Shown in pieces: positions 13,031 through 48,955 of a stretch of 64,000 bases of DNA (positions are counted from its first letter, which is position 1; each line of letters begins with the position of its first letter). The notes beneath the pieces are model-generated. The model was given only the letters and a program-made list of their open reading frames with translations. It ran no database searches and was not told where the DNA came from. The translations under genes and the position numbers were made by a program. The stretch spans positions 190,921 through 254,920 of the forward strand of contig NZ_LMOP01000013.1 in NCBI RefSeq assembly GCF_001423585.1. The letters run 5' to 3'. This DNA is from Xanthomonas sp. Leaf148 (GTDB taxonomy: Bacteria; Pseudomonadota; Gammaproteobacteria; Xanthomonadales; Xanthomonadaceae).

Positions 13031-13363
13031 TCAGGCGACTGCCAGCGAACGTCCGCCGCGCAGTACGTTGGATTGGCCCTTGGCGTCGTACGAGGGCGCG
13101 CTTTCGGTTCGCCCCAGGTGACGCAGCGCCCAGTTCACTTCGCGGCGGCGGCGTGCCAGCAGCGCACCATTGGCGCGATTGGCTTCGGCCAGCTCACGCA
13201 GACGCTCTTCTTCGCCTTCGGGCATTCGCGCTTCAAGCGCGCGCAGCGCCGACAGCTTGTCCTGCGTGTGCCGCATCAACCCGTCGATGTCGTTCTCGAG
13301 TAATGCCTGGCGTTCGCCGGCCAGCGCATCGCTGAGACGTTGCAGGAACTCGTTCACGTTCAT
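13031..13363 (-). CDS. flgN: Flagellar export chaperone FlgN
   Basis: A 110-residue all-helical cytoplasmic chaperone for the hook-junction proteins FlgK and FlgL, keeping them unfolded for the export gate. The FlgN-family heptad pattern is clear (FLQRLSDALAGERQALLENDIDGLMRHTQDK read along the helix). It lies 15 bases downstream of flgM in the flgA-flgM-flgN unit, the usual order in Pseudomonas and Xanthomonas. Its clients flgK and flgL lie 11-14 kb away. It should be transcribed both from the sigma54 flgA promoter and from the sigma28 promoter before flgM. Confidence 0.88.
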   Translation of the reverse strand: MNVNEFLQRLSDALAGERQALLENDIDGLMRHTQDKLSALRALEARMPEGEEERLRELAEANRANGALLARRRREVNWALRHLGRTESAPSYDAKGQSNVLRGGRSLAVA

Positions 13364-13378
13364 CCTTTTAGTCGGGAA

Positions 13379-13690
13379 TCAACCCGCCAGTTGCTGATTC
13401 AGATCCATCATGCGGCTGGCGATGGCATCCGGGTTGATGGAGTAGCTGCCGTTCTGCAAGGCGTCTTTCACAGCCTGGACGCGACCGGTGTCGATCGCCG
13501 AGGACTGCGACAGCTCGCGCTGCAGGTTCTGCAGATTGGTGGCTTCGCCGGTCAGCTTGACGCTGTCGGTGGGCGGTAAGGCTGCAATCGGGGACGCGCG
13601 ATCTTCACCGGCCGGAACGATCTTGCTGCTCGTGGCCGCGGTGCGAAGGGTGGCAGCGGTCGGTAGATTGCCTTCAATTTTCTGGGTCAT
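13379..13690 (-). CDS. flgM: Anti-sigma28 factor FlgM
   Basis: A 103-residue FlgM holds FliA inactive until it is exported through the finished hook-basal body. The C-terminal FliA-binding half is recognisable (IDTGRVQAVKDALQNGSYSI, then NPDAIASRMMDLNQQL). The start is the ATG at 13690, which has AGGAG upstream; a longer frame beginning at 13729 would run through the FliA promoter. Between flgA and flgM sits a sigma28 promoter, giving the classical negative-feedback loop in which FliA drives its own inhibitor. Confidence 0.9.
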   Translation of the reverse strand: MTQKIEGNLPTAATLRTAATSSKIVPAGEDRASPIAALPPTDSVKLTGEATNLQNLQRELSQSSAIDTGRVQAVKDALQNGSYSINPDAIASRMMDLNQQLAG

Positions 13691-33323: not shown

Positions 33324-34727
33324 ATGAAGACGACCATTTCCGCCCAGCTTGGCCAGCAACTGCACCTCACCCCGCAGTTGTTGCAGTCGATCCGTCTGTT
33401 GCAATTGGACGGCATGCAGTTGGAACTGGAAATCCGTCGTGCCCTGGAAACAAATCCGTTGCTGGAGTTGGAAGAGCTGGCCGATAACGGGGATGAGGCC
33501 ACCACCAACGACGATGGCGCCGGCGATATCGCTGCGTTCGATGAGCTGCCGGAAAGCACGATGTGGGACGTGCAGAGCAGCAGTTGGAACGATGGCGACG
33601 ACGACCGCATGCAGCGCGTGGCCGCCGGCGAGTCCACCGACCCGCATGTGCGCATCCTGCGCGAACTGGCGCTGGACCTGGACGAGGCCGCTTTGGGGGC
33701 CGCCGCGTTCTGGTTGGAGCAGACCGATGACGCGGGGTATCTGACCGAGGCGCTGTCGACGCTGCAGCAGCTTGGCGCCACCCGCCTGGGTATGACCGTT
33801 GAGGCAGTGGAAGCGATCCGTCAGCGCCTGCTGCACGGCGACCCGGCCGGGCTGGCCGCCTGCGACCTGCGCGAGTGCCTGCAAGCCCAGTTGAACGCCC
33901 TGCCCGGCCGCGTCCCGGCTCGTCATCTGGCTGCGCGCATCCTGTCCGGCGATCTGGATCTGCTGGCCAGCCACGACTACGCGCTGCTGGCGCGTGCGCA
34001 CGATGCCGAAGTGGACGATGCGCGCGAAGCGGTGCGGCTGATCCTGTCGCTGCAACCGCGCCCGGGCGACGACCTGCTGCAGGAAAGCAACGCCAGCGTG
34101 ATTCCGGATGTGCTCGCCTGGCATGCCGATGGCAGCTGGCGCGTGGCGTTGAATCCGGCCACCACGCACCGCGTCAGCATCAACCCGGTACACGAACGCG
34201 CATTGGCCGAGGCCGGCGATGCCGCGCAGCCGCTGCGCGACATGCTGCAGGAAGCGCGCTGGCTGACCCGCGGGCTGTCGATGCGCTACGAAACCCTGCT
34301 GCGCGCCACGCGTGCGATCGTCGAACGCCAGGCCGCCTTCCTGGCGCGCGGCGAAGAAGCGATGGCACCGCTGACATTGAAGGAAATCGCCGACGAGATT
34401 GGCATGCACGAATCGACGATTTCGCGCATTACCACCGGCAAATACCTGCAAACCCCGCGTGGCACCTTCGAACTCAAGCATTTCTTCGCCGTGCGACTGG
34501 AAGGCGCCAGCGTCTCCGGCCAGGCGGTCAAGGCCATGGTACGTCGTTTGATCGAGAGCGAGCCGGTGGGTCGCCCGCTGGCCGACGAAGCCATCGCCGG
34601 CCTGTTGTCGCGCCAGGGCGTTAATATTGCGCGAAGGACCGTGGCCAAATACCGCGAACAACTCGAGATCGCCCCGGCCCGCGAGCGCCGCCGTAATAAC
34701 AAACCGCTGCTTGCGCGAGCGGGATAA
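33324..34727 (+). CDS. rpoN2: RNA polymerase sigma54 factor RpoN2
   Basis: A 467-residue sigma54. Region I at the N-terminus is Gln/Leu-rich (LGQQLHLTPQLLQSIRLLQ, then LELEIRRALETNPLLE). Next come an acidic region II and the core-binding domain (about 100-300). The HTH is DEIGMHESTISRITTGKY, and the RpoN box is ARRTVAKYRE (436-445). Xanthomonads have two rpoN genes; the copy next to vemR-fleQ is RpoN2, which runs flagellar genes. It would recognise the GG-N10-GC promoters listed in this window. It lies 8 bases before vemR. Confidence 0.95.
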   Translation: MKTTISAQLGQQLHLTPQLLQSIRLLQLDGMQLELEIRRALETNPLLELEELADNGDEATTNDDGAGDIAAFDELPESTMWDVQSSSWNDGDDDRMQRVAAGESTDPHVRILRELALDLDEAALGAAAFWLEQTDDAGYLTEALSTLQQLGATRLGMTVEAVEAIRQRLLHGDPAGLAACDLRECLQAQLNALPGRVPARHLAARILSGDLDLLASHDYALLARAHDAEVDDAREAVRLILSLQPRPGDDLLQESNASVIPDVLAWHADGSWRVALNPATTHRVSINPVHERALAEAGDAAQPLRDMLQEARWLTRGLSMRYETLLRATRAIVERQAAFLARGEEAMAPLTLKEIADEIGMHESTISRITTGKYLQTPRGTFELKHFFAVRLEGASVSGQAVKAMVRRLIESEPVGRPLADEAIAGLLSRQGVNIARRTVAKYREQLEIAPARERRRNNKPLLARAG

Positions 34728-34735
34728 GGACTACT

Positions 34736-35119
34736 ATGAGCAAACTCACCGTGCTGCTGGTCGACGACCACGAGGGCTTCATCAACGCTGCGATGCGTCA
34801 TTTTCGCAAAGTGGAGTGGCTCAACATCGTGGGCAGTGCCGCCAATGGACTGGAAGCGATCGAGCGCTCTGAGTCGCTGCGCCCCAATGTCGTGCTGATG
34901 GATCTGGCCATGCCCGAGATGGGCGGACTGCAGGCAACGCGTCTGATCAAGACGCAGGACGATCCGCCGTATATTGTCATCGCGAGCCACTTCGACGATG
35001 CCGAGCATCGTGAACACGCTCTTCGCGCGGGTGCTGACAATTTTGTCAGCAAGCTGTCCTATATCCAGGAAGTCATGCCAATCCTGGAGGGCCTGACGGA
35101 AGGAGCCAGGAATGAGTGA
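34736..35119 (+). CDS. vemR: Single-domain response regulator VemR
   Basis: A 127-residue stand-alone receiver domain with no output: acidic pair Asp10/Asp11, acceptor Asp56 (VVLMDLAMPE) and Lys106 (FVSKLS). A single-domain regulator between rpoN2 and fleQ is VemR in X. campestris, where it affects virulence, polysaccharide and motility and acts with FleQ. Its last 8 bases overlap fleQ, implying co-translation and possibly complex formation. The cognate kinase is not in the window. Confidence 0.9.
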   Translation: MSKLTVLLVDDHEGFINAAMRHFRKVEWLNIVGSAANGLEAIERSESLRPNVVLMDLAMPEMGGLQATRLIKTQDDPPYIVIASHFDDAEHREHALRAGADNFVSKLSYIQEVMPILEGLTEGARNE

Positions 35120-36596
35120 GTCCCGCATTCTGTTGATCGACAGTGACGCCGTGCGCGCCGAGCGCACCGTGTCGCTGCTCGAGTTCATGGACTTCAATCC
35201 CCGCTGGGTCACCGACGGCGCCGACATCAATCCTGGCCGTCACCGCCACGATGAGTGGATGGCGGTGATGGTGGGCTCGGCGCAGGACGCCGCGCAGGCC
35301 GACAAATTCTTCGACTGGCTGGCCGATGCCAAGCTGCCGCCGCCGGTGCTGTTGATGGAAGGCAGCCCGATCACGTTTGCGCAGACGCACGGCCTGCACG
35401 AAGCCAATGTCTGGGCATTGGACACCCCCCTGCGCCACGCACAGCTGGAAGCCTTGCTGCGCCGCGCCAGCCTCAAGCGCCTGGATGCCGAGCATCAGGC
35501 CGGCGTGCAGCAGGACACCGGTCCGACCGGCAACAGCGAGGCGGTCACCCGCCTGCGTCGGTTGATCGACCAGGTGGCCGCGTTCGACACCACCGTGCTG
35601 GTGCTGGGCGAATCCGGTACCGGCAAGGAAGTGGTCGCCCGCGCCATCCATCAACATTCGCCGCGCCGCGACGGGCCGTTTGTCGCAATCAATTGCGGCG
35701 CGATCCCGCCGGATCTGCTCGAAAGCGAACTCTTCGGTCACGAAAAAGGCGCCTTCACCGGCGCGCTGACCACACGCAAGGGCCGCTTCGAAATGGCCGA
35801 AGGCGGCACGTTGCTGCTGGACGAAATCGGCGACATGAGCTTGCCGATGCAGGTGAAGTTGTTGCGCGTGCTGCAGGAGCGCAGTTTCGAGCGCGTTGGC
35901 GGTGGCCAGACCATCCGCTGCAACGTGCGCGTAATCGCCGCCACCCACCGCAACCTGGAAACGCGCATCAGCGACGGGCAGTTCCGTGAGGATCTGTTCT
36001 ATCGCCTCAACGTGTTCCCGATCGAAATGCCGGCGTTGCGCGAGCGCGTCGACGATCTGGCCATCCTGGTGCAGACGATTGCCGGCCAGCTGGCGCGTAC
36101 CGGGCGCGGCGAAGTGCGCTTTGCCGATGAAGCCTTGCAGGCGCTGCGCAGCTACGACTGGCCGGGCAATGTGCGCGAACTGACCAACCTGGTGGAGCGC
36201 CTGGCGGTGCTGCATCCTGGTGGGCTGGTGCGCGTGCAGGACCTGCCGGCCCGCTATCGCGGCGATTTTGCATCGTCCATTCCGGTCGAGCTGCCGCCGG
36301 AACCAGCCTTTGTGGCGGCGCCCACTGACGCTGGCGCACTGCCGAGCAACGTGGTGACGCTGCAGCCCAAGACGGCCGATGCCGAACCGGCCGCTGCCGC
36401 CAGTCTGCCCGACGATGGCATCGACCTGCGTGGCCACATGGCCACCATCGAGCTGGCCTTGATCAACGAGGCCCTGGAACGCACTCAGGGCGTGGTTGCG
36501 CATGCGGCCCAGTTGCTCGGCCTGCGTCGCACCACGCTGGTGGAGAAGCTGCGCAAGTACGGCATCGACCGCGAGCAGACCGAGCTGGCGAACTGA
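35112..36596 (+). CDS. fleQ: Flagellar master regulator FleQ (sigma54 enhancer-binding, c-di-GMP responsive family)
   Basis: A 494-residue activator of sigma54 RNA polymerase. An N-terminal FleQ/REC-like domain (1-120) lacks a normal phosphorylation site (LLIDSDAVRAER). The AAA+ domain (about 140-385) has Walker A GESGTGKE (166-173), the sigma54-contact loop GAFTGA (213-218), Walker B GGTLLLDEIGD and an arginine-finger region. After a linker comes a C-terminal Fis-type HTH (about 450-490). FleQ homologs bind c-di-GMP at the AAA+ domain. The likely targets are the sigma54 promoters of flgA, flgB, flgG, the glycan island, fliE, fliL and fliQ. Confidence 0.95.
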   Translation: MSESRILLIDSDAVRAERTVSLLEFMDFNPRWVTDGADINPGRHRHDEWMAVMVGSAQDAAQADKFFDWLADAKLPPPVLLMEGSPITFAQTHGLHEANVWALDTPLRHAQLEALLRRASLKRLDAEHQAGVQQDTGPTGNSEAVTRLRRLIDQVAAFDTTVLVLGESGTGKEVVARAIHQHSPRRDGPFVAINCGAIPPDLLESELFGHEKGAFTGALTTRKGRFEMAEGGTLLLDEIGDMSLPMQVKLLRVLQERSFERVGGGQTIRCNVRVIAATHRNLETRISDGQFREDLFYRLNVFPIEMPALRERVDDLAILVQTIAGQLARTGRGEVRFADEALQALRSYDWPGNVRELTNLVERLAVLHPGGLVRVQDLPARYRGDFASSIPVELPPEPAFVAAPTDAGALPSNVVTLQPKTADAEPAAAASLPDDGIDLRGHMATIELALINEALERTQGVVAHAAQLLGLRRTTLVEKLRKYGIDREQTELAN

Positions 36597-36624
36597 GCGG
36601 GCCGCTGCTTCGCCAGCGCCCTCT

Positions 36625-36638
36625 GGCATAGCGCTTGC
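36625..36638 (+). promoter_or_regulatory. Sigma54 promoter of the flagellin-glycan island
   Basis: GGCATAGCGCTTGC, GG-N10-GC with TGGCA and TTGCT halves, 29 bases after the fleQ stop. Predicted +1 near 36650 gives a leader of about 64 nt before the aminotransferase ATG. It ties glycan synthesis to RpoN2 and presumably FleQ. Confidence 0.75.
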
Positions 36639-36713
36639 TTCAACAGGATCAGTCCGTCCGCAGCCACCGGTTGCGGCGGAATCCCGACATTCACCCGTCC
36701 CAGCGAGGCATTG

Positions 36714-37823
36714 ATGCCCATCCCCGTCACCAGTCCGCTGCTGCCGCCGCTGGAAGACTTTCTGCCGTATCTGGAACGGATCTGGACCAGTCGCATCCTC
36801 AGCAACGGCGGCGAGATGCACCGTGCGCTCGAGCAGGCGCTGTGCGACTACCTGGGCGTGCCGCATCTGGCCCTGTTGACCAACGGCACCACGGCATTAA
36901 TCACCGCCTTGCAGGCGCTGCGCATCACCGGCGAAGTCATCACCACGCCCTACTCCTTCGTGGCCACGGCGCACTCGTTGCTGTGGAAGAGCATCACCCC
37001 GGTGTTCGTGGATATCGACCCGGTGACGCTCAACATGGACCCGTCCAAGATCGAGGCGGCCATTACCCCGCAGACCACCGCGATCATGCCGGTGCACTGC
37101 TATGGCACCGCGTGCGACACCACTGCGATCACGCGCATCGCCGACATCTACAACCTCAAGGTGATCTACGACGCGGCGCATGCGTTCGGCGTGCGCGATG
37201 CCGGCGGTTCGATCCTGCGTCACGGCGACCTGAGCGTGTTGAGCTTTCATGCCACCAAGGTGTTCAACACTTTCGAAGGCGGCGCCATCGTGTGCCCTGA
37301 TGAGAGAACCTATCAACGCATCGGGCATCTGAAAAATTTCGGCTTCGTCGACGAAACCACGGTGGTCGCACCGGGCATCAACGGCAAGATGAATGAGATC
37401 AGCGCCGCGTTCGGCCTGCTGCAACTCAAGCACATCGACGAGGCCATTGCGCAACGCGGCGCCATCGACGCGCAGTACCGGCAGCGGCTGAGCGCAGTGC
37501 GCGGCATCCGCTGCGTGGCATCGCCGCAGCATTCCAGCGCCAATCACGCGTATTTTCCGATCCTGGTGCAGGACGACTACCCGCTGTCGCGCGATGCGTT
37601 GTATCAGTTGATGCGCGAACACGGCATCCTGGTACGGCGTTACTTCTATCCGTTGATCAGCGACTTCCCGATGTATCGCGCCCTGCCCTCGTCGGCACCG
37701 GCGTGGTTACCGGTGGCGCGCTCGGTGGCCGCACAGGTGTTGTGCCTGCCGATTTTTCCCGGCTTGCATAGCGATCAGGTCGACACCATCGCCGACCTGA
37801 TCGCCGGCGCACAGGCAACATGA
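36714..37823 (+). CDS. vioA: DegT/DnrJ/EryC1 sugar aminotransferase (VioA-like)
   Basis: A 369-residue PLP enzyme of the sugar aminotransferase family. The PLP lysine is Lys182 in SFHATKVFNTFEGGA. Other signatures are TNGTTALITALQAL, YSFVATAHSLLW, DAAHAFGV and NGKMNEISAAFGLLQL. Such enzymes make dTDP-4-amino-4,6-dideoxy sugars from 4-keto precursors, as VioA does for viosamine in P. syringae flagellin glycan. The start is ATG 36714 with GAGG upstream. It opens the island and follows a sigma54 promoter. The exact sugar isomer cannot be read from sequence. Confidence 0.82.
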   Translation: MPIPVTSPLLPPLEDFLPYLERIWTSRILSNGGEMHRALEQALCDYLGVPHLALLTNGTTALITALQALRITGEVITTPYSFVATAHSLLWKSITPVFVDIDPVTLNMDPSKIEAAITPQTTAIMPVHCYGTACDTTAITRIADIYNLKVIYDAAHAFGVRDAGGSILRHGDLSVLSFHATKVFNTFEGGAIVCPDERTYQRIGHLKNFGFVDETTVVAPGINGKMNEISAAFGLLQLKHIDEAIAQRGAIDAQYRQRLSAVRGIRCVASPQHSSANHAYFPILVQDDYPLSRDALYQLMREHGILVRRYFYPLISDFPMYRALPSSAPAWLPVARSVAAQVLCLPIFPGLHSDQVDTIADLIAGAQAT

Positions 37824-37887
37824 TCGCAACACGCTGCACCTGCATTTCAGACTTCCATCTCTTCAACAGGCAACCAGGCGAGATCGC

Positions 37888-38112
37888 ATGACCCAGGCAA
37901 CATTTATCGAGAACTTCCTCTCCGCCACCGACTTCCAGGAACCGGTGGAGGTCACGCTGGAGACCGTGCTGCTGGAATTGCCGGAGTGGGATTCGCTGGC
38001 CGCGCTGGGCGTGATCGTCATGTTCGACATGGAGTACGGCAAGACCATCACCGGCGAACATCTCACCACCGCCGTCACCGTGGGCGATCTCTACAAACTC
38101 ACCGAGGCGTAA
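37888..38112 (+). CDS. Acyl carrier protein of the glycan island
   Basis: A 74-residue acidic ACP. The phosphopantetheine serine is Ser36 in PEWDSLAALGVI. It would carry the short acyl chain made by the next genes and deliver it to the amino sugar. It is not the housekeeping AcpP, which carries a DSLD motif and sits in the fab cluster. It is followed after 5 bases by the KAS III gene. The 64-base gap after the aminotransferase has no promoter I recognise. Confidence 0.88.
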   Translation: MTQATFIENFLSATDFQEPVEVTLETVLLELPEWDSLAALGVIVMFDMEYGKTITGEHLTTAVTVGDLYKLTEA

Positions 38113-38117
38113 GCACC

Positions 38118-39158
38118 ATGCCGACCTCCACGCTGCACAACGTCCGCTTTGCCGGCATGGCGACCTGCGTGCCCAAGCGGGTCGTGTCCAATCTCACCGA
38201 CTGCCGGCCGCAGATCCGCTCCGAACGCGAGCGGCTGGTGCGCAACATCGGCATCGAGACGCGCCGCATGGCCTCGGAGTGGCAGTGCTTTTCGGACCTG
38301 GCCTTCGATGCGACGGAAGTGCTGCTGGACAAGCTGCAGTGGAAGCGCGAAGAGATCGACGCACTGATCGTGGTGACGCAATCGCCGGACTATCCGATTC
38401 CGGCCACCGCCATCATCCTGCAGGGCCGGCTCGGCCTATCGCATGCCACGGTGGCGTTCGACGTCAACCTGGGCTGCTCGGCCTACCCGTTCGGCATCAA
38501 CCTGCTCGGCTCGATGATCGCTGCCGGCGGCGTCAAAAAGGGCCTGCTGCTGGTGGGCGACCGTAGCGCGAACCTGGAAGACCCGATCTTCTCCGACTCC
38601 GGCACCGCCACCGCGCTGGAGTTCAGTGCCGATGCGCCGCCAATGTATTTCGACCTCAACAGCGATGGCAGCGGCTATAAGGCGATCATCCTGCCGGTGG
38701 GTGGTCAACGCGAACCGGTTGCCATGCAGCACCTGATTCCGTTCCGCGAAGAACCCGATGGCCCCTGGCGCCGCGCAACCGACCTGATCCTGGATGGCGT
38801 GGCGGTGTTGAGCTTCTCCACTCAACGTATTCCACCGGCGGTGCAGAAGCTGCTCGACTACACCGGCGTTTCCAAGGATGAGATCGATTACTTTGTGTTC
38901 CATCAAGCCAACCGGATGATCAACGAGACCATTCGCAAGAAGCTCGGCCTTCCGGTGGAAAAGGTGCCCTCCACGTTGCGTGATTTCGGCAACTCCAGCG
39001 GCGCGTCGCTGCCAGTTACCATGAGCGCGCGCATTAACAAGGAACTCGAAGCTGGCCCCAAGCGCGTGCTGCTGTGCGGCTTCGGCATCGGGCTGTCGTG
39101 GGGCACTTGCCTGCTCGACATCGAAGGAGCCGTTTTTCCGGATGTGATTGAATCGTGA
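38118..39158 (+). CDS. 3-oxoacyl-ACP synthase III-like (KAS III)
   Basis: A 346-residue thiolase-fold condensing enzyme with the full Cys-His-Asn triad: Cys120 (NLGCSAYPFG), His262 (FHQANRMI) and Asn292 (FGNSSGASLP). It would condense an acyl-CoA starter with malonyl-ACP, giving a 3-oxoacyl chain on the local ACP. KAS III genes occur in P. syringae flagellin viosamine islands, where the amino sugar carries a 3-hydroxybutanoyl group, so acetoacetyl-ACP is the likely product here (inference). Its TGA overlaps the GTG of the next gene. Confidence 0.88.
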   Translation: MPTSTLHNVRFAGMATCVPKRVVSNLTDCRPQIRSERERLVRNIGIETRRMASEWQCFSDLAFDATEVLLDKLQWKREEIDALIVVTQSPDYPIPATAIILQGRLGLSHATVAFDVNLGCSAYPFGINLLGSMIAAGGVKKGLLLVGDRSANLEDPIFSDSGTATALEFSADAPPMYFDLNSDGSGYKAIILPVGGQREPVAMQHLIPFREEPDGPWRRATDLILDGVAVLSFSTQRIPPAVQKLLDYTGVSKDEIDYFVFHQANRMINETIRKKLGLPVEKVPSTLRDFGNSSGASLPVTMSARINKELEAGPKRVLLCGFGIGLSWGTCLLDIEGAVFPDVIES

Positions 39159-39919
39159 GTATTGCCCCAGACCCGTTCTCGCTCGCCGGCAAACGCATCC
39201 TCGTCACCGGTGCCTCCTCGGGTATCGGCCGCCAGATCGCTATTTCCTGCGCCGAACTGGGTGCCCATTTGGCGATCAGCGGACGCGACCTTGCGCGACT
39301 AACGTCCACCCTGGAGGTGTTGCCGGGCGACGGGCACGTGGCAATTGCGGCAGACCTTGACCGGCAGGAGGACATCGATCGCTTGGTATCCGAAGTCGGC
39401 GTCTTGGACGGGATGGCGCACGCGGCCGGGATTTCCCGACTAGTCCCGCTGCGCCTGGTCAATCGGACGCATTTGGACGACATTTTTTCCAGCAACACAT
39501 TCGCACCGATGCTGCTGACTCGTGGCCTGCTGGCGAAGAAGCGCATCGCCGCGAACGGCTCGCTGGTGTTCGTCGCTTCGGTCGCTTCGCACATCGGGCC
39601 GATGGCGAGCAGCGCCTACGCAGCCAGCAAGAGCGCCCTGCTCGGCATGGTGAGATCGCTGGCGCAGGAAGTTGCCAAAAGCGGCATTCGCGCCAACTGT
39701 ATCGCCCCGGGTTACGTGCGCACGCCGCTGCTAGATGGCTTGCAGGGTAGCGGCGGCAACATGGAAGGGCTGTTCGAACTGACACCACTTGGCATGGGCG
39801 AGCCGGAGGACGTCGCCTACGCCGCCACGTTCCTGCTGGCCGATGCGAGCCGCTGGATTACGCGTAACTATTTCGTCGTGGACGGCGGCCTCACCGTGCC
39901 GATGGATATCTACGCATGA
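39155..39919 (+). CDS. Short-chain dehydrogenase/reductase, probable 3-oxoacyl-ACP reductase (first copy)
   Basis: A 254-residue classical SDR. The Rossmann motif is TGASSGIG (about 18-25) and the active site is Tyr155-x3-Lys159 ([10 protein letters not shown]) with a preceding serine (VASVAS). A late [22 protein letters not shown] segment is typical of FabG-like enzymes. It probably reduces the 3-oxoacyl chain on the island ACP. GTG start overlapping the KAS III stop, and an ATGA overlap with the next SDR, show tight coupling. It resembles the next gene closely enough to be an old tandem duplicate. Confidence 0.82.
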
Positions 39920-40653
39920 ACACGCCCGCACGCAACGCGTTTTCGCTCGAGGGCAAGACAATCCTGGTGACGGGAGCGTCGTCGGGACTGGGTCGGCAGA
40001 TCGCTATCGCCTGCGCACAGCGAGGCGCCCGTATCGTTCTCGCTGGCCGCGACAAAGACCGCCTCGCACACACCCACGCGCAGTTGCAGGGAACGGGCCA
40101 CGTTGGTGTGCTCGGCGACCTGACCAGCGCCGCCGATCGCGAGACACTGGCAGTTGCGGCTGGCGCGACGGTACATGGCGTGGTGCACTGCGCTGGCATG
40201 CAGAAGCACTGTCCGATCCGGCAACTGACCGAGGCGGCGATGACCGAGATGTACACGGTCAACTTTCTCGCTCCGGTGATGCTGACGCAGCGCCTGCTGC
40301 AAGCAAATGCCATCGCCCCGCAGGGCTCGATCGTGTTTATGCTGTCCACTGCCGCGCACCTAGGCACGCGCGGCGTGGGGCCGTATTCGGCGATGAAGGC
40401 TGGCCTTATCGGCATCATCAAGTGTCTGGCTCTGGAACAGGCCAAGCGCAGAATCCGGGTCAACGGCATTTCCCCGTCGGCCGTGGCCACGCCGATGTGG
40501 GGCGCCGACCAGCTTGAGGCGCAGAAGGCGCGGCATCCGCTGGGCCTGGGGGAGCCGCAAGACGTGGCCAACGCAGCCGTCTACCTGCTAGCCGACGCCA
40601 GCCGCTGGGTCACTGGAACCAGCCTGGTTATGGACGGTGGCGCGATCCTATGA
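39916..40653 (+). CDS. Short-chain dehydrogenase/reductase (second copy)
   Basis: A 245-residue classical SDR with [20 protein letters not shown] near the N-terminus and Tyr157-x3-Lys161 ([10 protein letters not shown]) in the active site. It shares whole phrases with its upstream neighbour ([23 protein letters not shown]), so they are paralogs. Divergence around the catalytic loop suggests that one may act on the acyl chain and the other on the sugar or an oxidised side chain; the sequence does not say which. It overlaps both neighbours by ATGA. Confidence 0.8.
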
Positions 40654-41294
40654 CTCATCCAGTTTTGATTGTTGGCGCCGGCGGATGGGGTCGCGAGGTC
40701 CTGGCGCAGATGCAGGGCGATCCGGCGTGCGGAACGCAGTGGCATCCGGTGGGCTTTCTGGACACGCGCCCCCAGATGCTGGACGGTCTTAGCTGCGAGC
40801 TCGCCATTGTCGGCAGCCCGCTAGCGTACCAGCCACAGGACGAAGAACGATTCGTCTGCGCGATCGGCGATCCGCATTCGCGCCAGCGCTACGCGCAGCC
40901 ATTGCTGGCGCAAGGCGCGCAATTCATTCCGATCATTACCGGCGCCTTCCTGAGCCCCCGCGTTCACATCGGCCAGGGCTGCTTCCTGAGCCATCGCGTA
41001 CAGCTCAGCCCCGACGTGTGGCTGGGCGACTTCGCCAACGTGCATGCCAATACCATGCTCGGGCACGACGTCCATGTCGGTGATTACGCGCAGATCGGGG
41101 CGATGACCTTCGTCGGCGGCGGCGCGCGAATCGGTAAGCACGCCATCGTGCACCCACATGCCACCATCCTGCCCGGCATCCATATCGGCGACAGCGCCGT
41201 CGTCGGCGCCGGTGCGGTCGTGGTGAAGGACGTGCCGGCAGGCGCCAGCGTATTCGGCAACCCTGCCCGAGTCATTTACCACAAGGATTCCTGA
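40650..41294 (+). CDS. NeuD/PglD/VioB-type left-handed beta-helix acyltransferase
   Basis: A 214-residue acyltransferase. The N-terminal PglD_N domain ([21 protein letters not shown], nucleotide-sugar binding) is followed by hexapeptide repeats (about 95-205) with [14 protein letters not shown] and [24 protein letters not shown]. The catalytic histidine is probably that of MLGHDVH. It would transfer an acyl group to the 4-amino group made by the aminotransferase; P. syringae VioB is the nearest functional analogue. The donor may be the island's ACP. Coupled by ATGA overlap to the second SDR. Confidence 0.8.
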
Positions 41295-41306
41295 GGAAGC
41301 CCGCCG

Positions 41307-42452
41307 ATGCGATCGCGAATGCACCCCAGCTACTACCTGTCGACGGAGATCTTCGAGCGTGAACAGCGCAAGATCTTCCGCAAGGTCTGGCTCTTTGCCG
41401 GCCTTAAGATGCTGCTGCCTGATAACAACTGTTTCATCACACGCAAGCTCGCCGGCATTCCGGTGTTGATCCAGAACTTCCATGGCCGGCTTCGCGCGTT
41501 CGAGAACGTCTGCCTGCACCGCAGCGCGCTGCTGCAGACCACTGCGGTGGGAAAGCGCCCGCTGGTCTGCCCTTACCATGCATGGAAGTACGACGCCGAC
41601 GGCCGGGTCGAGAACATCCCCGAATGCGATGCCCTCTATGGCTTCGGCAATGAGGAACGTCATGGTCTGAAGCTGCGCGAGTTCGCTTTGCGCGAGGTGG
41701 GCAATCTGCTGTTCGTCAACCTCGACGACACGCCAATCCCACTAGAGGCGCAGTTCACGCCGGAATTTCTGCGCTCGCTAGAAAGCAGTTCCAGCATCTA
41801 CGACAGCGAGGTCATGGTGACCACCTGGCAAGGCCGATATAACTGGAAGCTGGCCTACGAAAACCTGCGCGACGCAAACCATCCGCGATTCGTTCACCCA
41901 AAGAGCCTGGCGCGCACGGTCAAGTTCATTCCGCGCATCGATCGTGCGCTGCTGGAGGACTCTTCGCAGCCGCTGGCCGACACCAGCCAAGCCGGCCTCC
42001 GCCGCGAGATGGCGCGGTTCAGTAGTGGCGGCGCTGACGCCCCGCTCCCCGAGCTCAAGCACGTCGGCTGGCACGACAAGGTGCAGCGTTGGGGCGATCA
42101 AGACGTCTACTACAACTGGCTGGCGTTCCCGAACATGCACATTGCCAGCGCCAACGGCGGCCGCTCATTCACGCTGGAGAACCATACCCCGGTGGCGCCG
42201 GACCGCACCGACCTGGAGATCTACTGGTTCACGGCGCGCAAGACTCAGCCCTATGCGGGCTCGCACCAGGTGCTGCTGGCGCAAATGCACGGCAGCAAAT
42301 TGGTAGTTGGCGAAGACGTGGAAATCTTGGAGCAGGTGCAAGCTGCACTGCACGCCGACGCGCCAGTGCCATACCAGGGCGCCTACGAGTCGACCAACCG
42401 GCTGGTCGAACGCTGGTACGCAACGTTAATGGAGAGCGATCATGGCATCTAG
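41307..42452 (+). CDS. Rieske [2Fe-2S] non-heme iron oxygenase
   Basis: A 381-residue oxygenase alpha subunit like those of ring-hydroxylating and related Rieske oxygenases. The Rieske cluster motif is intact: Cys69-x-His71-x16-Cys88-x2-His91. The mononuclear iron site has NWKLAYENLRDANHPRFVH with His192 and His197, and a probable facial Asp337 (GEDVEIL). Asp189 is the bridging acid. It needs a reductase, which is not encoded nearby. Inside a sugar-modification operon it might oxidise the sugar or the N-acyl chain, adding a group not explained by the other enzymes. It overlaps the next gene by 11 bases. Confidence 0.85.
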   Translation: MRSRMHPSYYLSTEIFEREQRKIFRKVWLFAGLKMLLPDNNCFITRKLAGIPVLIQNFHGRLRAFENVCLHRSALLQTTAVGKRPLVCPYHAWKYDADGRVENIPECDALYGFGNEERHGLKLREFALREVGNLLFVNLDDTPIPLEAQFTPEFLRSLESSSSIYDSEVMVTTWQGRYNWKLAYENLRDANHPRFVHPKSLARTVKFIPRIDRALLEDSSQPLADTSQAGLRREMARFSSGGADAPLPELKHVGWHDKVQRWGDQDVYYNWLAFPNMHIASANGGRSFTLENHTPVAPDRTDLEIYWFTARKTQPYAGSHQVLLAQMHGSKLVVGEDVEILEQVQAALHADAPVPYQGAYESTNRLVERWYATLMESDHGI

Positions 42453-43065
42453 GTGGATCGTGGGCGCCGGCCCGTTCCTGGACGTGGTGGTTGACACCTG
42501 GCAGCAGGCGCTGCCGGACGAGTCGTTACAGCGGCTGGAGATCCCCATGCGCGAGGACCATACGTTCGACATCGAACCTCTTCAGCGCATCGATGGCGAC
42601 AACCGTGGTGCGTTCGTGGCGTTCGATGAGCGCTTCGGCAACTTCAGACGCATGGAGCTGATGCGCGCGGCGATGGAACGCGGGCTGCGGCTGGAGCCGT
42701 TCGTGCACCCGACCGCACTGGTTGCGCGCAACGCATCGATTGCTGCCAACGCCTTCATCGGCCCCTATGCGGTCATCGGACACGGCTGCCAGATCGGCTA
42801 CAACAGCGTGGTCCTTGCAGGCGTGCAGATAGGACACGGGACTCGTATCAAACCCTCGTGCTGGATAGAAGGAGGGGTACAGGTATGCGCGCATGTAGAG
42901 GTGGAAAGCCATTGCACCATCCGCGCCGGCACGGTGCTCCAGCGCGGCATCAAAGTCGGCCGCGGCTGCGAACTGGGGTGGCCGCAAGCCTATGCCCACG
43001 ATATCCCGGCCCGGACCGTGTTCGACCCGCGCTACGACGCACCGATCCATGTGTATGGCCAGTAA
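42442..43065 (+). CDS. Second left-handed beta-helix acyltransferase (NeuD-like)
   Basis: A 207-residue protein with an N-terminal domain resembling a degenerate PglD_N (MASRWIVGAGPFLDVVVD lacks the full glycine motif). Hexapeptide repeats follow, about 85-185 (HPTALVARNASIAANAFIGP, YAVIGHGCQIGYNSVVLAGV, IGHGTRIKPSCWIEGG). The His of AVIGHGCQIG is a candidate catalytic base. It may add a second acyl group, or serve the Rieske product. It overlaps the Rieske gene by 11 bases, so both are probably translated together. Confidence 0.75.
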   Translation: MASRWIVGAGPFLDVVVDTWQQALPDESLQRLEIPMREDHTFDIEPLQRIDGDNRGAFVAFDERFGNFRRMELMRAAMERGLRLEPFVHPTALVARNASIAANAFIGPYAVIGHGCQIGYNSVVLAGVQIGHGTRIKPSCWIEGGVQVCAHVEVESHCTIRAGTVLQRGIKVGRGCELGWPQAYAHDIPARTVFDPRYDAPIHVYGQ

Positions 43066-43083
43066 TCCATTGGAGGCGGCAAG

Positions 43084-43743
43084 ATGAAAGACTACGCGCT
43101 GAAAAGCGGCGAGCGATACCACACCCTCGACCCGAACCTTGTCGGCGGAGACCACTTGTGGCGATACCGTTACGCGGCTTCTCGCCTCGCCGGTGGCGAC
43201 CGACAGCTATTCGGCGCAGACATCTTCTGCGGCTCCGGCTATGGCGCCGCGCTGGTGGCGCGCCAAACACAGGCATCAATCCTCGCGATCGACGGATCGG
43301 AAGAAAGCATCGCTCTCGCCGGGAGCAAGATCCACGCGCCGAACATCATCTGGGCGGCCAAGTTGTTCCCCTTCGATCTTCCCGATGGATGTTTCGATTT
43401 CGTCATGAGTATGGAGTCGATGGAACACGTGAAGAATCACGAAGCATTTTTCTGGGTGTTGACGAAATCATTGAAGCGCGGCGGGCAGCTTTTCATTTCC
43501 TGTCCTAACGAAAACGTCATGCCCTACACGGGCTACAAGTGGCACTACCGCCACTTCGTTCCTGCGGAGGTGCGTGCGCTCGCTCGCGAGAATGGGCTGG
43601 AGGAAGTCGCTGCATTCTCGACCGTATGTTGCGGATTCAAGGATGGCAAGACCGCAGTGTTCTATCCGCACCAGATGGGTAATGACCAGCCGCGGGATGT
43701 CGAAGTCGGCGACACCATGTTCTTCGAATTCCGGAAGCACTGA
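43084..43743 (+). CDS. Class I SAM-dependent methyltransferase
   Basis: A 219-residue Methyltransf_11-like protein. Motif I is DIFCGSGYGAALVA, an acidic post-I residue ends ILAIDGS, motif post-II is FDFVMSMESMEHV, and LKRGGQLFISCPNE follows. In P. syringae flagellin glycan, a methyltransferase puts a methyl group on the modified viosamine; a sugar O-methyltransferase is the natural guess here. Codon use seems a little less GC-rich than in the flagellar genes. A GGAGG ribosome site precedes the ATG. Confidence 0.82.
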   Translation: MKDYALKSGERYHTLDPNLVGGDHLWRYRYAASRLAGGDRQLFGADIFCGSGYGAALVARQTQASILAIDGSEESIALAGSKIHAPNIIWAAKLFPFDLPDGCFDFVMSMESMEHVKNHEAFFWVLTKSLKRGGQLFISCPNENVMPYTGYKWHYRHFVPAEVRALARENGLEEVAAFSTVCCGFKDGKTAVFYPHQMGNDQPRDVEVGDTMFFEFRKH

Positions 43744-43744
43744 C

Positions 43745-44695
43745 ATGCGCATCTACGCCGCCGGCTGGGCTCTGCAGAGCCCAGCGCTCAACTTCTTCAA
43801 ACGATTTCTGCGACTGAATGCGATGCAGCTATCCGGCATCATCTACCCGCGCCAGATACCGGACGACCTCGACGGCATTAAGGTGCTGGACTTTGATGCC
43901 GCCCGCAGCGTGGTGCGCATGGACGACATTGTCCTTGAGTGCCACCGCCCCGGTCTGGCGGATGTGCGGCTGGGTGCCGATCTGCGGGACTTCTTCGCCA
44001 CGCTGGGAATCCGAACGCAGGGGGTTGCCGAGTTCATCAGAGACCTAGTGGACCAGGACCATGGGGACCGGTTGCGCTTCCCCCTCGCCGGCGTCACGTC
44101 GTCGGACCTGCGCAGGCTGCGCGATTGTCCCGTACCGCATCTCATCGGCAACGGCTTCGCCGATCTGCGCTCGCACCAAGTCGCCATCCAGTTGGACGCG
44201 ATCGCCAGGAGCTGCGATTGGGACCAGATGCTTGCCTTCGACGACGACCGGACGCCGGACGACGAGCTGCGCTTCTTGCTCTGCGATCTGTACGCGTATG
44301 GTGCGCTCAAGCGCGTACATGTGCTGGACACGCCATTGCCCTTTCTGGAGGCGCTGCTGAGTTGGCGAATCCAGGAGCCCGACGCCGAATTGGACGTGGA
44401 GTTGTCGACCGCTGCTGCCGAGGCGCTGGGGCCACAGCTGGAATTCTACCGGCGCAGCCTGGGCTGCCTGCCTGTCGCCGAGGCGATGACCGACGCCGTT
44501 TATCTGTCCGGTTCCGCCGACGCGATCGCTTCTCTTCACCCCGAGCGCGCCGTCGTCCCTTCGGTGTTTTTCATGCGACGTTCGATCCTGGACCTGGGCA
44601 CCCTTCGCCACGCGCTTGATTCGCGCCCGCACCGGCTCTTGCTACGTCAGCCAGACACCGATCCGGGCAACCTGATCGCAGCGCTGCTGAACTGA
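43745..44695 (+). CDS. Unrecognised 316-residue protein of the glycan island
   Basis: I do not recognise a family. The soluble, Leu/Asp/Arg-rich protein has no signal peptide or membrane segment. The first 50 residues (MRIYAAGWALQSPALNFFKRF ... GIIYPRQIPDDLDGIKVLDFD) resemble a small Rossmann-like or PglD_N-type fold. The rest is helical, with acidic patches (FDDDRTPDDEL). It starts 1 base after the methyltransferase stop, so it is an operon member. A link to sugar or flagellin modification is inferred only from position. Its last bases overlap the frame of a possible tiny ORF at 44707. Confidence 0.7.
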   Translation: MRIYAAGWALQSPALNFFKRFLRLNAMQLSGIIYPRQIPDDLDGIKVLDFDAARSVVRMDDIVLECHRPGLADVRLGADLRDFFATLGIRTQGVAEFIRDLVDQDHGDRLRFPLAGVTSSDLRRLRDCPVPHLIGNGFADLRSHQVAIQLDAIARSCDWDQMLAFDDDRTPDDELRFLLCDLYAYGALKRVHVLDTPLPFLEALLSWRIQEPDAELDVELSTAAAEALGPQLEFYRRSLGCLPVAEAMTDAVYLSGSADAIASLHPERAVVPSVFFMRRSILDLGTLRHALDSRPHRLLLRQPDTDPGNLIAALLN

Positions 44696-44706
44696 AAGGA
44701 AAGCGC

Positions 44707-44841
44707 CTGGACCCAGATGCCCTGTGGGCCGCCACCTATTGCCGAACGCCGGCCGCGTTGGACTCCCTGTTTTCGAATCTCCCCGACGAAATGTTACGAG
44801 TCCTAGTTATCCAATCCTCGAACACGGTCCGCCCGGCATGA
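44707..44841 (+). CDS. Possible small CTG-start ORF or gene remnant, 44 codons
   Basis: The frame from CTG 44707 reads LDPDALWAATYCRTPAALDS and continues to a TGA at 44839-44841 that overlaps the glycosyltransferase ATG as ATGA. AAAGGA lies 6 bases upstream of the CTG. Codons are mostly GC-ending in the first half, as in real genes here. It could be a tiny coupling ORF for the giant glycosyltransferase, a remnant of a lost gene, or chance. Confidence 0.35.
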   Translation: MDPDALWAATYCRTPAALDSLFSNLPDEMLRVLVIQSSNTVRPA

Positions 44842-47800
44842 CTTCCACCATTCTAGTCAGCATCGTCATGCCGACCTACAAACCTGCGTATTTCACGCAG
44901 GCGCTGGACAGCTTGCTGGCGCAGACCTACGCAGCGTTGGAGCTGGTGATCTGCGACGACAACGGAGATGGCGCGATTGCGGCGTTGCTGGAACTCAGGC
45001 TAGCGGATGCCACATTCCCGATCCGCTATCACCGCAATCCGTCGCGGCTAGGCGAGCTGGGCAGCACCGTTAAAGGCATAGGGCTAGCACAGGGCGAGTA
45101 CGTCAAGTTCCTGCATGACGACGATGTGCTTGAGCCGGACTGCATTGAGCAGTTGGTGGCAGCGATCGAGCGCAATCCGGGCACGGCAATGGCATCGTCG
45201 CGTCGGTTGCGCATCGACGACGACGGCGCGCCGTTGCCGGACATCCTGGCCACCTGCTTTCCGTTTGCCGACGATGCGTTGATCGATGGGCAGGAGCTGG
45301 TGTCGTTCCTGGCGGACCACACCATCAACTTCATCGGCGAGCCGAGTTGCGTGCTGTGTCGGCGCGCCGATCTGCTGGCTATGGGCGCTGACTTGATGTC
45401 GTTGAACGGTAAGCCGATCCATTGGGTCGGCGATCTGGCGATCTACGTCAAGCTGCTGCGCCACGGCAACCTGGCGCTGCTGTCCAGGCCGCTCACTCAC
45501 TTTCGGGTGTCCAATGCGCAGTTCAGCCAGGCCGGTCGTAATCAGCCCGGCATCGGCGACCAAGGCCACGAGGATCTGCGCCAGGGTATCCGCCAGCTGG
45601 GTTGGCGGCGCGAGACCGGCGACAACCGGCAGGTGCGGGTTGCGCCGCTCAGCCCGCACAAGGCGCGGGTATTCAAGTCGGTAGACCTGGTCAATGCGCT
45701 GATGCAAAGCGCCGGCATGGCCGAGCGGGTGTCGCCGGGCACCTGGCTGGGCGTGCGACACCCCAGCGATGTGCAGCGCGCGTTGATCGATGCCCGCCTG
45801 CAGGCGCATGCCGGCGGGCCACGCATTGCGGTGATGCTGATCGACCGTGATGGCGATGCCGCCGCAGTAGCCACAACCCAGGCCAGTATCGATGCGTTGG
45901 CTTGCTATCGAAATCAGCAGACCTGGGTGGTCAGCAGCGCACCGCAGCAGATGGCCGAGCACGGCGAGCATGGGGTATTGATTGGCGAGGCGGGTCTGGT
46001 GGCCTCACTCAACCAGGCCATTGCAAGGCAACAGGATGTCGATTGGGTGGTGCTGGTGGATGCCGGCAGTGTCTTTACGACCAGCGGCCTGACGATGCTG
46101 GCGCTGGGCATGATCGGGCTGCCCGAGCAGTGCCAGGCGGTCTATGCGGACGAAGTGGTCGCGCTGGACACCGCGCAGCTTGGGCTGGCGTTGCGGCCGG
46201 CGCTGTATCTGGATGCGCTGTTGAGTGCGCCGTCCACGCTGTCGCGGCACTGGCTGTTCCGCCGCAGCAGTCTGGTGGCCGACGGCGGTTTTCCGGCAGA
46301 CCTTGGGCATGCTTTCGAACTCGGCTATCAGCTTGGCCTGGTCGAGCGTTACGGCCTGGCCTGCGTGCAGCACATCGCCGAGCCCTTGTTGGTGGCCGCG
46401 GCCCAGACCCGGCACACCGATGCGGACGAGCAACATGCCATTGCCCGCCATCTGGCCGCGCGCGGGTATGCGGACGCGCGCGTGCACAGTGCCGGCCCTG
46501 GTCGGCATGCGGTGGATTACCAACATGCCCAGCAGCCGCTGGTCAGCATCCTGGTGCTGGTCGATGGCCGTTTGCCGCAGGTGCAGCGCTGCCTGGAAAG
46601 CATCCTGGCCAACACAACCTACCCGCATTACGAAGTGCTGCTGCTGGATCGCGATAGCAACGCTCCGGACCTGCGCGATTGGCTGGCCGGCATCGAAGCG
46701 CTGGGCATGCAGCAGATCCGCGTGCTGCGCTTTGCCGCCGAGACTACGCGTGAAGCGGTCTGCAACGCGGCCGCCGAGCATGCACGTGGGGACGTGCTGC
46801 TGTGGCTGTCGGCCGGCGCTGCGGTGATGAAGGCCGATTGGCTGGAGCAACTGCTCAACCACGCACTCCGTCCGGAAGTGGGTGCGGTGGCCGGCAAGCT
46901 GTTGCGCGGCGACGGCACCGTGCATCACGCCGGCCTGCTGCTGGGCCTGGGGGCACCGGTGGCGCGCGCGTTTGAAGGCAGTGCCTTCGACGAATCCGGC
47001 TATCTGCAGCGCCTGCAGCTGGATCAGAACTACACCGCCTTGAGCGGCGAGTGCCTGATGCTGCCGCGCCAGCTGTTTATCGATGCAGGCGGCTTTGCGC
47101 TGGAGCCGGCACTGGCGCAGTGGAGCGATGTCGACCTGTGCCTGCGCCTGCACCAGGCCGGGTACTTGAATGTGTTTGCCGCGCGCGCGCAGCTGTTGAT
47201 CGACCCACCCGAGCAGACGCCTGCCACTGCGCTGGACGAAGAGGCGATGTATGCACGTTGGTTGCCGGTGATGGCCAACGACCCGGCCTACAACCCGGGG
47301 TTTTCGCTGGACCCGGGCGCGGGCTTTGCGCTGGCCGACCCGCGCGCCAGCTGGCGGCCATTGCAGTCGTGGCGACCGCTACCGAGCGTGATCGCACTGC
47401 CGGCCGATATCGAAGGCTGCGGACACTACCGGGTGATCCAGCCGCTGCGCGCCCTGCGCGAGGCCGGGCTGGCCGAGGGCGTGTTGTTCAACGGCTATCT
47501 GGAGATCAGTGAGCTGGCACGTCAGGATCCCGACGTGGTGATCCTGCAACGCCAGGTGGGCGAAGCGCGGCTGGAGGCGATGCGGCGTATGAAGGCCTTG
47601 TCGCGCGCGTTCAAGGTCTACGAGCTGGACGATTACCTGCCCAACCTGCCGCTGAAAAATACCCATCGCGCGCAGATGCCCAAGGACATTCTCAAGACCG
47701 TGCGGCGCGGGCTGGGCCTGGTGGACCGCTTTGTGGTGTCCACGCCTGCGTTGGCCGAAGCGTTTGCCGGGCTGCACAGCGATATCCGCGTGGCCGAAAA

Positions 47801-48365
47801 CCGCCTGCCGCCGCATTGGTGGGACGCCTTGCCAGAGCGCGGCATCCGCCACGGCGGCAAGCCGCGGATCGGTTGGGCCGGCGGCGCCAGCCATACCGGC
47901 GACCTGGAACTGATCGCCGACGTGGTGCGCGAACTGGCCGACGAGGTCGAATGGGTGTTCATGGGGATGTACCCGTTCGCGCTGCGCCAGCACGTGCACC
48001 AGTTCCAGCCCGGCGTGCCGATCGATCACTACCCGGCCGCGCTGGCCGCGCTGGATCTGGATCTGGCGCTGGCACCGGTGGAGCAAAACCTGTTCAACGA
48101 GTGCAAAAGCAATCTGCGACTCTTGGAATATGGCGCTTGCGGTTATCCGGTGATCGCCAGCGACGTGCGTTGCTACCAGGGCAACCTGCCGGTGACGCTG
48201 GTGAAAAACCGCTACCGCGACTGGATCGGGGCGATCCGCGAGCATCTGTCCGACCCGGCCGCTTCAGCAGCGAAAGGCGCAGCGTTGCGCGAGGCAGTGC
48301 GCCGCGACTGGATGTTGAGCGGCAGCCATCTGGACACCTGGCAAGCCGCCTGGTTGCCGGACTAG
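44838..48365 (+). CDS. Giant multidomain glycosyltransferase (GT2-GT2-GT4-like), probable flagellin glycosyltransferase
   Basis: A 1175-residue cytoplasmic protein. An N-terminal GT2 domain (about 1-220) has VSIVMPTYKPAYFTQALDSL and an acidic metal site (FLHDDDVLEPD). A second GT2-like domain (about 560-800) has VSILVLVDGRLPQVQRCLES and LSGECLMLPR. A C-terminal GT-B/GT4-like domain (about 860-1175) has DIEGCGHYRVIQPLRAL, RIGWAGGASHTGD and NLRLLEYGACGYPVIASD. Three catalytic units could build a short oligosaccharide on FliC. I chose the ATG at 44838; a GTG at 44724 would add 38 unlikely residues. It is the last gene of the island. Confidence 0.85.
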   Translation: MTSTILVSIVMPTYKPAYFTQALDSLLAQTYAALELVICDDNGDGAIAALLELRLADATFPIRYHRNPSRLGELGSTVKGIGLAQGEYVKFLHDDDVLEPDCIEQLVAAIERNPGTAMASSRRLRIDDDGAPLPDILATCFPFADDALIDGQELVSFLADHTINFIGEPSCVLCRRADLLAMGADLMSLNGKPIHWVGDLAIYVKLLRHGNLALLSRPLTHFRVSNAQFSQAGRNQPGIGDQGHEDLRQGIRQLGWRRETGDNRQVRVAPLSPHKARVFKSVDLVNALMQSAGMAERVSPGTWLGVRHPSDVQRALIDARLQAHAGGPRIAVMLIDRDGDAAAVATTQASIDALACYRNQQTWVVSSAPQQMAEHGEHGVLIGEAGLVASLNQAIARQQDVDWVVLVDAGSVFTTSGLTMLALGMIGLPEQCQAVYADEVVALDTAQLGLALRPALYLDALLSAPSTLSRHWLFRRSSLVADGGFPADLGHAFELGYQLGLVERYGLACVQHIAEPLLVAAAQTRHTDADEQHAIARHLAARGYADARVHSAGPGRHAVDYQHAQQPLVSILVLVDGRLPQVQRCLESILANTTYPHYEVLLLDRDSNAPDLRDWLAGIEALGMQQIRVLRFAAETTREAVCNAAAEHARGDVLLWLSAGAAVMKADWLEQLLNHALRPEVGAVAGKLLRGDGTVHHAGLLLGLGAPVARAFEGSAFDESGYLQRLQLDQNYTALSGECLMLPRQLFIDAGGFALEPALAQWSDVDLCLRLHQAGYLNVFAARAQLLIDPPEQTPATALDEEAMYARWLPVMANDPAYNPGFSLDPGAGFALADPRASWRPLQSWRPLPSVIALPADIEGCGHYRVIQPLRALREAGLAEGVLFNGYLEISELARQDPDVVILQRQVGEARLEAMRRMKALSRAFKVYELDDYLPNLPLKNTHRAQMPKDILKTVRRGLGLVDRFVVSTPALAEAFAGLHSDIRVAENRLPPHWWDALPERGIRHGGKPRIGWAGGASHTGDLELIADVVRELADEVEWVFMGMYPFALRQHVHQFQPGVPIDHYPAALAALDLDLALAPVEQNLFNECKSNLRLLEYGACGYPVIASDVRCYQGNLPVTLVKNRYRDWIGAIREHLSDPAASAAKGAALREAVRRDWMLSGSHLDTWQAAWLPD

Positions 48366-48437
48366 CGCGGGGACGCTGCTTCAGCGTTCTCCCGCTTGCG
48401 GTGAAACGGATGCGTGGCTGTGTGAATTGACGGTGGT

Positions 48438-48606
48438 GCCCTCATCCGGCGCTGCGCGCCACCTTCTCCCGCTAGCGGGAGAAGGGAAAGCCTGGCTGCG
48501 CGCGACTGGTCGGTTGCACGCAACTGGTCGGTTGCACTGCAACTGGTCGCCCACCGGCTCCCTTCCCTCGCTTGCGGGGGAAGGTGCCCGAAGGGCGGAT
48601 GGGGGC
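48438..48606. repeat. Direct repeat, first copy (about 170 bp)
   Basis: Copy 1 of a unit repeated with a period of 231 bases. It opens with CCCTCATCCGGCGCTGCGCG, then a hairpin TTCTCCCGCTAGCGGGAGAA, then alternating CAACTGGTC/GGTTGCA words, and ends with a reversed sequence GGGGGAAGGTGCCCGAAGGG. The ends resemble the widespread CCCTCATCCGCCCTTCGGGCA intergenic repeat. No gene is seen anywhere in 48366-48907. Confidence 0.85.
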
Positions 48607-48668
48607 ATGCGTCCACACTCCGGCGCCGCGCGTTGCTCTGCCTGCAGCCGCGTGGCAATTACCGTCGC

Positions 48669-48837
48669 GCCCTCATCCGGCGCTGCGCGCCACCTTCTCC
48701 CGCCAGCGGGAGAAGGGAAAGTCTGGCTGCACGCAACTGGTTGGCTGCGCGCAACTGATCGGTTGCACTGCAACTGGTCGCCCACCGGCTCCCTTCCCTC
48801 GCTTGCGGGGGAAGGTGCCCGAAGGGCGGATGGGGGC
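48669..48837. repeat. Direct repeat, second copy (about 170 bp)
   Basis: Copy 2 of the same unit, differing at only a handful of positions, for example in the CAACTGGTC words. It ends about 70 bases before the fliE sigma54 promoter. The internal hairpins (TTCTCCCGCCAGCGGGAGAA) may end transcripts coming from the glycan island. Confidence 0.85.
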
Positions 48838-48907
48838 GATCTCGCTGCAACGTTCCCGCCGACAGGCGCGACAGGAATGCCCCGTGCCGGAATCCCGGCG
48901 CGATTTC

Positions 48908-48921
48908 GGCACGCCGCTTGC
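48908..48921 (+). promoter_or_regulatory. Sigma54 promoter of the fliEFGHIJK operon
   Basis: GGCACGCCGCTTGC, GG-N10-GC, with the ideal GGCACG and TTGCA halves. Predicted +1 near 48933 leaves about 23 nt before the fliE ATG. Confidence 0.88.
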
Positions 48922-48955
48922 ATTGGTGTGGATGCCTCCCTGGCTGACCGCACCC

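Follow-up and report, generated by a model that had tools for sequence, protein, structure and literature searches.

We analysed a 64,000-nt stretch of Xanthomonas sp. Leaf148 (contig NZ_LMOP01000013.1, positions 190,921 to 254,920; hereafter the window), the host genome being 5.2 Mb in 15 contigs. The window contains a candidate flagellin-glycosylation island of eleven + strand genes at 36714-48365, located 3' of rpoN2, a response regulator gene and fleQ, and the island is shared in full by loci of X. codiaei and X. floridensis, relatives of the source genome. All genes named in a first-pass annotation of this DNA (sugar aminotransferase, acyl carrier protein (ACP), ketoacyl-ACP synthase III (KAS III), two short-chain dehydrogenase/reductases (SDR), two acyltransferases with left-handed beta-helix (LbH1 and LbH2), Rieske oxygenase, methyltransferase, an orphan and a giant glycosyltransferase) were found on the + strand. 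The overlaps it claimed were also found, at four of the ten junctions and all between same-strand genes; for the giant glycosyltransferase, ATG 44838 (1175 aa) is a more likely start than the GTG at 44724. The features are as follows.

33324..34727, +, rpoN2 (sigma54), upstream regulator (Pfam Sigma54_DBD/CBD/AID)
35112..36596, +, fleQ, sigma54 activator (Pfam FleQ and Sigma54_activat)
36624..36639, +, sigma54-like promoter site TGGCATAGCGCTTGCT, fitting the sigma54 consensus and conserved in Xanthomonas gaps
36714..37823, +, VioA-like DegT/DnrJ sugar aminotransferase, 369 aa (PF01041, E 4.6e-98; SFHATK motif)
37888..38112, +, ACP, 74 aa (DSL serine; NCBIfam ACP matches below cut-off)
38118..39158, +, KAS III (VioS-like), 346 aa (PF08541 and PF08545 above cut-off; Cys/HQAN/GNSSGA)
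39155..39919, +, SDR 1, VioR-like reductase (PF13561; TGxxxGxG, YxxxK)
39916..40653, +, SDR 2 (PF13561; TGxxxGxG, YxxxK)
40650..41294, +, LbH1, VioB/NeuD/PglD-type sugar N-acyltransferase, 214 aa (TIGR03570; solved relatives PerB and VioB)
41307..42452, +, Rieske oxygenase alpha subunit, 381 aa (PF00355 and PF00848; both metal motifs)
42442..43065, +, LbH2, second acyltransferase, 207 aa (PF00132; nearest solved structures LpxA/LpxD)
43084..43743, +, class I S-adenosylmethionine (SAM) methyltransferase, 219 aa (PF08241, Methyltransf_11)
43745..44695, +, orphan, 316 aa, with a predicted FkbM-like two-domain fold and without FkbM motifs by motif counts
44838..48365, +, VioT-like giant glycosyltransferase, 1175 aa (PF00535 in two stretches)

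The promoter site was judged against the sigma54 consensus. The pattern TGGCAYN5TTGCW matched four times in the window, with 0.19 matches expected from shuffles. Thirty Xanthomonas fleQ-vioA gaps were examined (genome G001 has none), and a looser pattern, TGG[CT][AG][CT]N5TTGC, was kept at the same place in 28 of them; in the remaining two (G011 and G026) C replaces its first T. The site had been placed 29 bases behind fleQ; the site is present, with a spacing of 27 bases to the fleQ stop. As for RpoN2 driving the island, sigma54 control fits the conserved site, but sequence cannot tell which sigma54 factor reads it. By eye, a second sigma54-like site (CGGCACGCCGCTTGCA) was spotted at about 48905-48923 of the window, upstream of an open reading frame (ORF) starting at 48957.

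The enzymes form a viosamine-type set of aminotransferase, ACP, KAS III, reductase, VioB-type acyltransferase and methyltransferase, which fits the viosamine-type reading of the first-pass annotation. The top NCBIfam match of the aminotransferase was DesI, below the DesI cut-off, and the ACP had no Pfam match and only sub-cut-off NCBIfam matches besides its DSL motif. LbH1 scored 182.7 bits on TIGR03570 (NeuD/PglB/VioB; cut-off 160.8). In the methyltransferase, Methyltransf_11 was above the Pfam cut-off and a CGSGYG loop is visible; the motif I search pattern gave no match in this protein. The giant glycosyltransferase contains two GT2 stretches and a weak GT4-like end, and no second match to it was found in its own genome at E <= 1e-10. 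The sugar nucleotide requires RmlB, whose gene lies outside the island in the same genome (509.6 bits).

As described for P. syringae (PMC3927599), VioA, VioB, VioR and VioT are required for the modified viosamine on flagellin, N-(3-hydroxy-1-oxobutyl)-2-O-methylviosamine, and VioM adds the methyl group. Its island (vioA, vioM, vioT, vioS, vioB, vioR and acp) comprises the same enzyme classes with closely similar protein sizes in Table 1 of that paper, and the size and GT2 domains of our giant glycosyltransferase would fit a VioT-type enzyme. The gene order differs, however, and the P. syringae gene list includes no second SDR, Rieske oxygenase, second acyltransferase or orphan.

Another counterpart is described in X. 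oryzae, where gigx1-10 are reported to be regulated by RpoN2 and FleQ (PMC8657755), a ten-gene cluster to determine flagellin glycosylation by matrix-assisted laser desorption/ionization time-of-flight (MALDI-TOF) analysis (PMC6859632), and an acetyltransferase of the flagellar region to be essential for this glycosylation (PMC4875605). The window likewise has its island downstream of rpoN2-fleQ with a predicted sigma54 site, with eleven genes against the ten of gigX1-10 in X. oryzae pv. oryzae. Judging by gene count, our guess for the ten gigX genes would be vioA, acp, KAS III, two SDRs, LbH1, Rieske, LbH2, FkbM and VioT; an X. oryzae FkbM protein of 405 aa exists, whereas the window has methyltransferase and orphan where the FkbM enzyme would be expected. 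The P. aeruginosa M18 island MGI-IV, which has a homologue in PAK, is described as containing ring-hydroxylating dioxygenases together with acetyltransferase, methyltransferase and sugar transaminase (PMC3189399). Since the X. oryzae island and the MGI-IV dioxygenases are on record, neither the island nor an island oxygenase is new. The first-pass annotation had taken the oxygenase and second acyltransferase, along with the orphan, to predict an extra, perhaps undescribed sugar. The oxygenase and second acyltransferase genes are genus-wide and no peculiarity of the source genome, and a sigma54-regulated island of this kind is already described.

We are confident about the identity of the island: it is very probably a sigma54/FleQ-controlled flagellin-glycosylation island of viosamine type, with a proposed route to an acylated, hydroxylated and methylated sugar.

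Of 35 Xanthomonas genomes, 31 had KAS III (E <= 1e-60), and the same 31 had Rieske (E <= 1e-20); comparison across the genus had been proposed by the first-pass annotation. fliD was revealed in all 35, so G005, G019, G020 and G030 possess fliD without a detected island. Among 369 genomes of the class, KAS III at E <= 1e-60 was found in four, the window's own and three with proteins 37-40% identical. We compared the window island gene by gene with the 30 other Xanthomonas islands (n 23 to 30 for each median). Median protein identity to the window was high at the ends (FleQ 97%, VioA 94%, KAS III 92%, giant glycosyltransferase 86%) and lower in the interior (SDRs 70-71%, LbH1 55%, Rieske 72%, LbH2 50%). 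G015 showed this most simply, with FleQ 100%, VioA 99.7% and glycosyltransferase 96% identical but SDR1 71%, LbH1 54% and LbH2 51%, which is the pattern of recombinational exchange between conserved ends. From these sequences we infer that the island interior has been exchanged by recombination at its conserved ends; this exchange is new here, and such a layout suggests that recombination may switch glycan type in Xanthomonas flagella.

Other islands showed peculiarities. At L077 (G001, 3374-5148) fliD continues into vioS near residue 131, and rpoN2, fleQ, vioA and acp are missing between the two; a natural deletion seems to have occurred, or else the assembly is at fault. At L060 (G031, 12786-13535) a variable insert protein resembles CMP-KDO synthetase by eye; such proteins lie in variable inserts of other islands, and this gene type is listed in the description of the P. 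aeruginosa M18 island.

Searches of Pfam, NCBIfam and PHROGs gave no hit for the orphan. It had been called an orphan, yet it belongs to a family of 41 proteins including that of the window, the alignment covering 100% of the query for 40 of them and 94% for one; so it is not a unique ORF or non-gene, and for lack of a PHROGs match a phage protein was rejected. In the wider sampling of 369 class genomes it was found only in the window's own. Its predicted fold is the two-domain fold of the Methylobacillus flagellatus FkbM protein (2py6), over nearly the full length. Sequence similarity between the two was not detectable. 2py6 is homologous over its full length to the FkbM enzymes that other Xanthomonas islands encode (FkbM profile, E 3.5e-174). 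At E <= 10, the families listed for the 41 members did not include PF05050, the orphan profile gave four matches to sequences of solved structures (best E 0.035), and the Foldseek viral library returned generic methyltransferase-like matches only.

In the islands, the place between LbH2 and the giant glycosyltransferase is a methylation slot. A motif-bearing FkbM occupies it in 23 of the 30 other islands, and Pfam confirmed five FkbM proteins from islands and related loci. G013 and G018 have methyltransferase and orphan in place of FkbM; G008 ends early, and G007, G011, G028 and G029 were assigned to neither class. FkbM and the methyltransferase-orphan pair were never seen together in Xanthomonas islands. 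The orphan stood directly behind the methyltransferase in all six loci where neighbours could be read, most relatives lying on metagenome contigs outside that count. Given this fixed position and the FkbM-type fold, a share in the methylation step is a better reading of the orphan than the predictor of an extra sugar that it had been taken for. Methyltransferase and orphan may form one methylation unit, in which the orphan would be a non-catalytic, substrate-holding partner.

A tentative alternative, somewhat less probable than not, is that the orphan is no partner protein but catalytic in its own right, as a methyltransferase that binds SAM in an unusual way or with another activity on this fold. 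Its invariant residues, including K19, N25, D166, S280, Q302, D304 and T305, suggest a conserved site. The FkbM SAM-site motifs are nevertheless missing from the family: of the 41 members, one showed a glycine-rich loop in the first strand-helix region and none had D-x-E-G in the C-terminal half, against DxGA in ten and D[IV]EG in nine of ten FkbM slot proteins. The partner reading is the one we keep. The family, its predicted fold and its fixed partner are new here, and the literature searched proposed no role for it. If the reading is true, the family would have the shape of a methyltransferase and be coupled to a genuine one, and this pairing is open to test in vitro.

The Rieske protein is an alpha subunit with ligands for both the [2Fe-2S] cluster and mononuclear iron (CxH..CxxH and E...D..H....H). 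All 31 islands carry it at a position after LbH1 and ahead of the methylation slot, often in overlapping genes. Type I proteins, 70-79% identical to the window's, were found in 24 genomes including the window's, and type II (34-36%) in eight; G006 has both types, and at its locus L067 (7743-11295) two Rieske-LbH2 pairs stand in tandem, type II then type I. Counting 42 Rieske matches (31 islands, L004, L006 and L104-L111), we found LbH2 downstream in the same orientation and no more than 450 nt away in 41; the exception is G008, where the contig ends. The two genes are read as one module, and this genus-wide module is new here. Close relatives of the Rieske protein formed 298 clusters at E <= 1e-30, the best 120 including Delftia, Variovorax, Pseudomonas dryadis and Pseudoxanthomonas proteins; among 369 class genomes only the window's own had it at E <= 1e-65. 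Names of the listed relatives range over ring-hydroxylating oxygenase, glycine betaine demethylase, carnitine monooxygenase subunit and even ribosomal subunit interface protein, and are no guide to function. In the literature searched we found no Rieske enzyme tied by name to a flagellin glycan and no proposed role for the oxygenase or its linkage with LbH2, though the X. oryzae gigX description may treat the oxygenase.

It is rather unlikely that the enzyme is an oxidative demethylase or amine oxygenase instead of a carbon hydroxylase. The nearest solved structures by sequence include, besides other Rieske oxygenases, carnitine monooxygenase and a chain named demethylase, and the best NCBIfam model was glycine betaine monooxygenase, below cut-off; but these matches are distant, and the proposed route offers no clear substrate for such a reaction.

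We infer every chemical step, and FliC as acceptor, as follows. The VioA-like enzyme would convert the RmlB product to dTDP-4-amino-4,6-dideoxyhexose, and KAS III, ACP and SDR would make a short 3-hydroxyacyl-ACP, whose acyl group LbH1 would transfer to the amino group. Rieske might then hydroxylate the sugar or the acyl chain, LbH2 would acylate again, most probably on the new oxygen, and the methyltransferase with its FkbM-shaped orphan partner would perform O-methylation. Finally the giant glycosyltransferase would attach the finished sugar to FliC. A putative doubly acylated or oxidised sugar is plausible. The fullest version of this proposal is unlikely as a whole, namely that the orphan founds a class of motif-less FkbM-shaped partners acting only in complex with the methyltransferase, that Rieske-LbH2 is a portable hydroxylate-then-acylate module, and that the product is an undescribed oxidised, doubly acylated, methylated flagellin amino sugar. 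Flagellin sugars can affect plant perception of bacteria. If the proposed route is true, the genus-wide pair of Rieske and LbH2 would open an oxidation step of flagellin glycans to experimental test.

Several observations weigh against this route. No glycan structure for any Xanthomonas was found in the literature searched, 3 of 31 islands seemingly have one SDR, and no Rieske reductase partner was found within the island. For the orphan fold, both structure alignments with 2py6 had a root-mean-square deviation of 6 or more, 2py6 was not among the 50 rows that Foldseek listed, and hhalign against FkbM profiles (10, then 130 FkbM sequences) gave probabilities of 0.9% and 8.2%. Outside Xanthomonas, FkbM occurs together with methyltransferase and orphan in Oxalicibacterium (L004) and Massilia (L006), so the pair does not just substitute for FkbM, and the orphan as a simple FkbM stand-in was rejected. 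Six Rieske-LbH2 pairs (L104-L109) in six genomes of another Xanthomonadaceae genus stand alone in 18-kb regions, where no other island gene was found save one weak response-regulator match; the pair can thus work elsewhere. These six suggest a passenger module for another product, such as a lipid or lipopolysaccharide sugar, in place of the FliC sugar. We consider this quite improbable, as the pair lies inside every Xanthomonas island at the fixed position given above. It is most improbable that the whole island makes a surface polysaccharide sugar, for although DegT aminotransferases, SDRs and hexapeptide acyltransferases also occur in O-antigen pathways, it lies between fleQ and later flagellar genes, its sigma54 site is conserved, and the described X. 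oryzae data concern flagellin.

At L006 (4746-8063), a 1105-aa ORF composed of tetratricopeptide repeats, a GT41 glycosyltransferase domain and a DegT aminotransferase domain adjoins FkbM, methyltransferase and orphan. In the window, a 177-nt direct repeat at 48430-48837, with copies 94% identical and 24-nt inverted-repeat cores, separates the island from the flagellar genes that follow.
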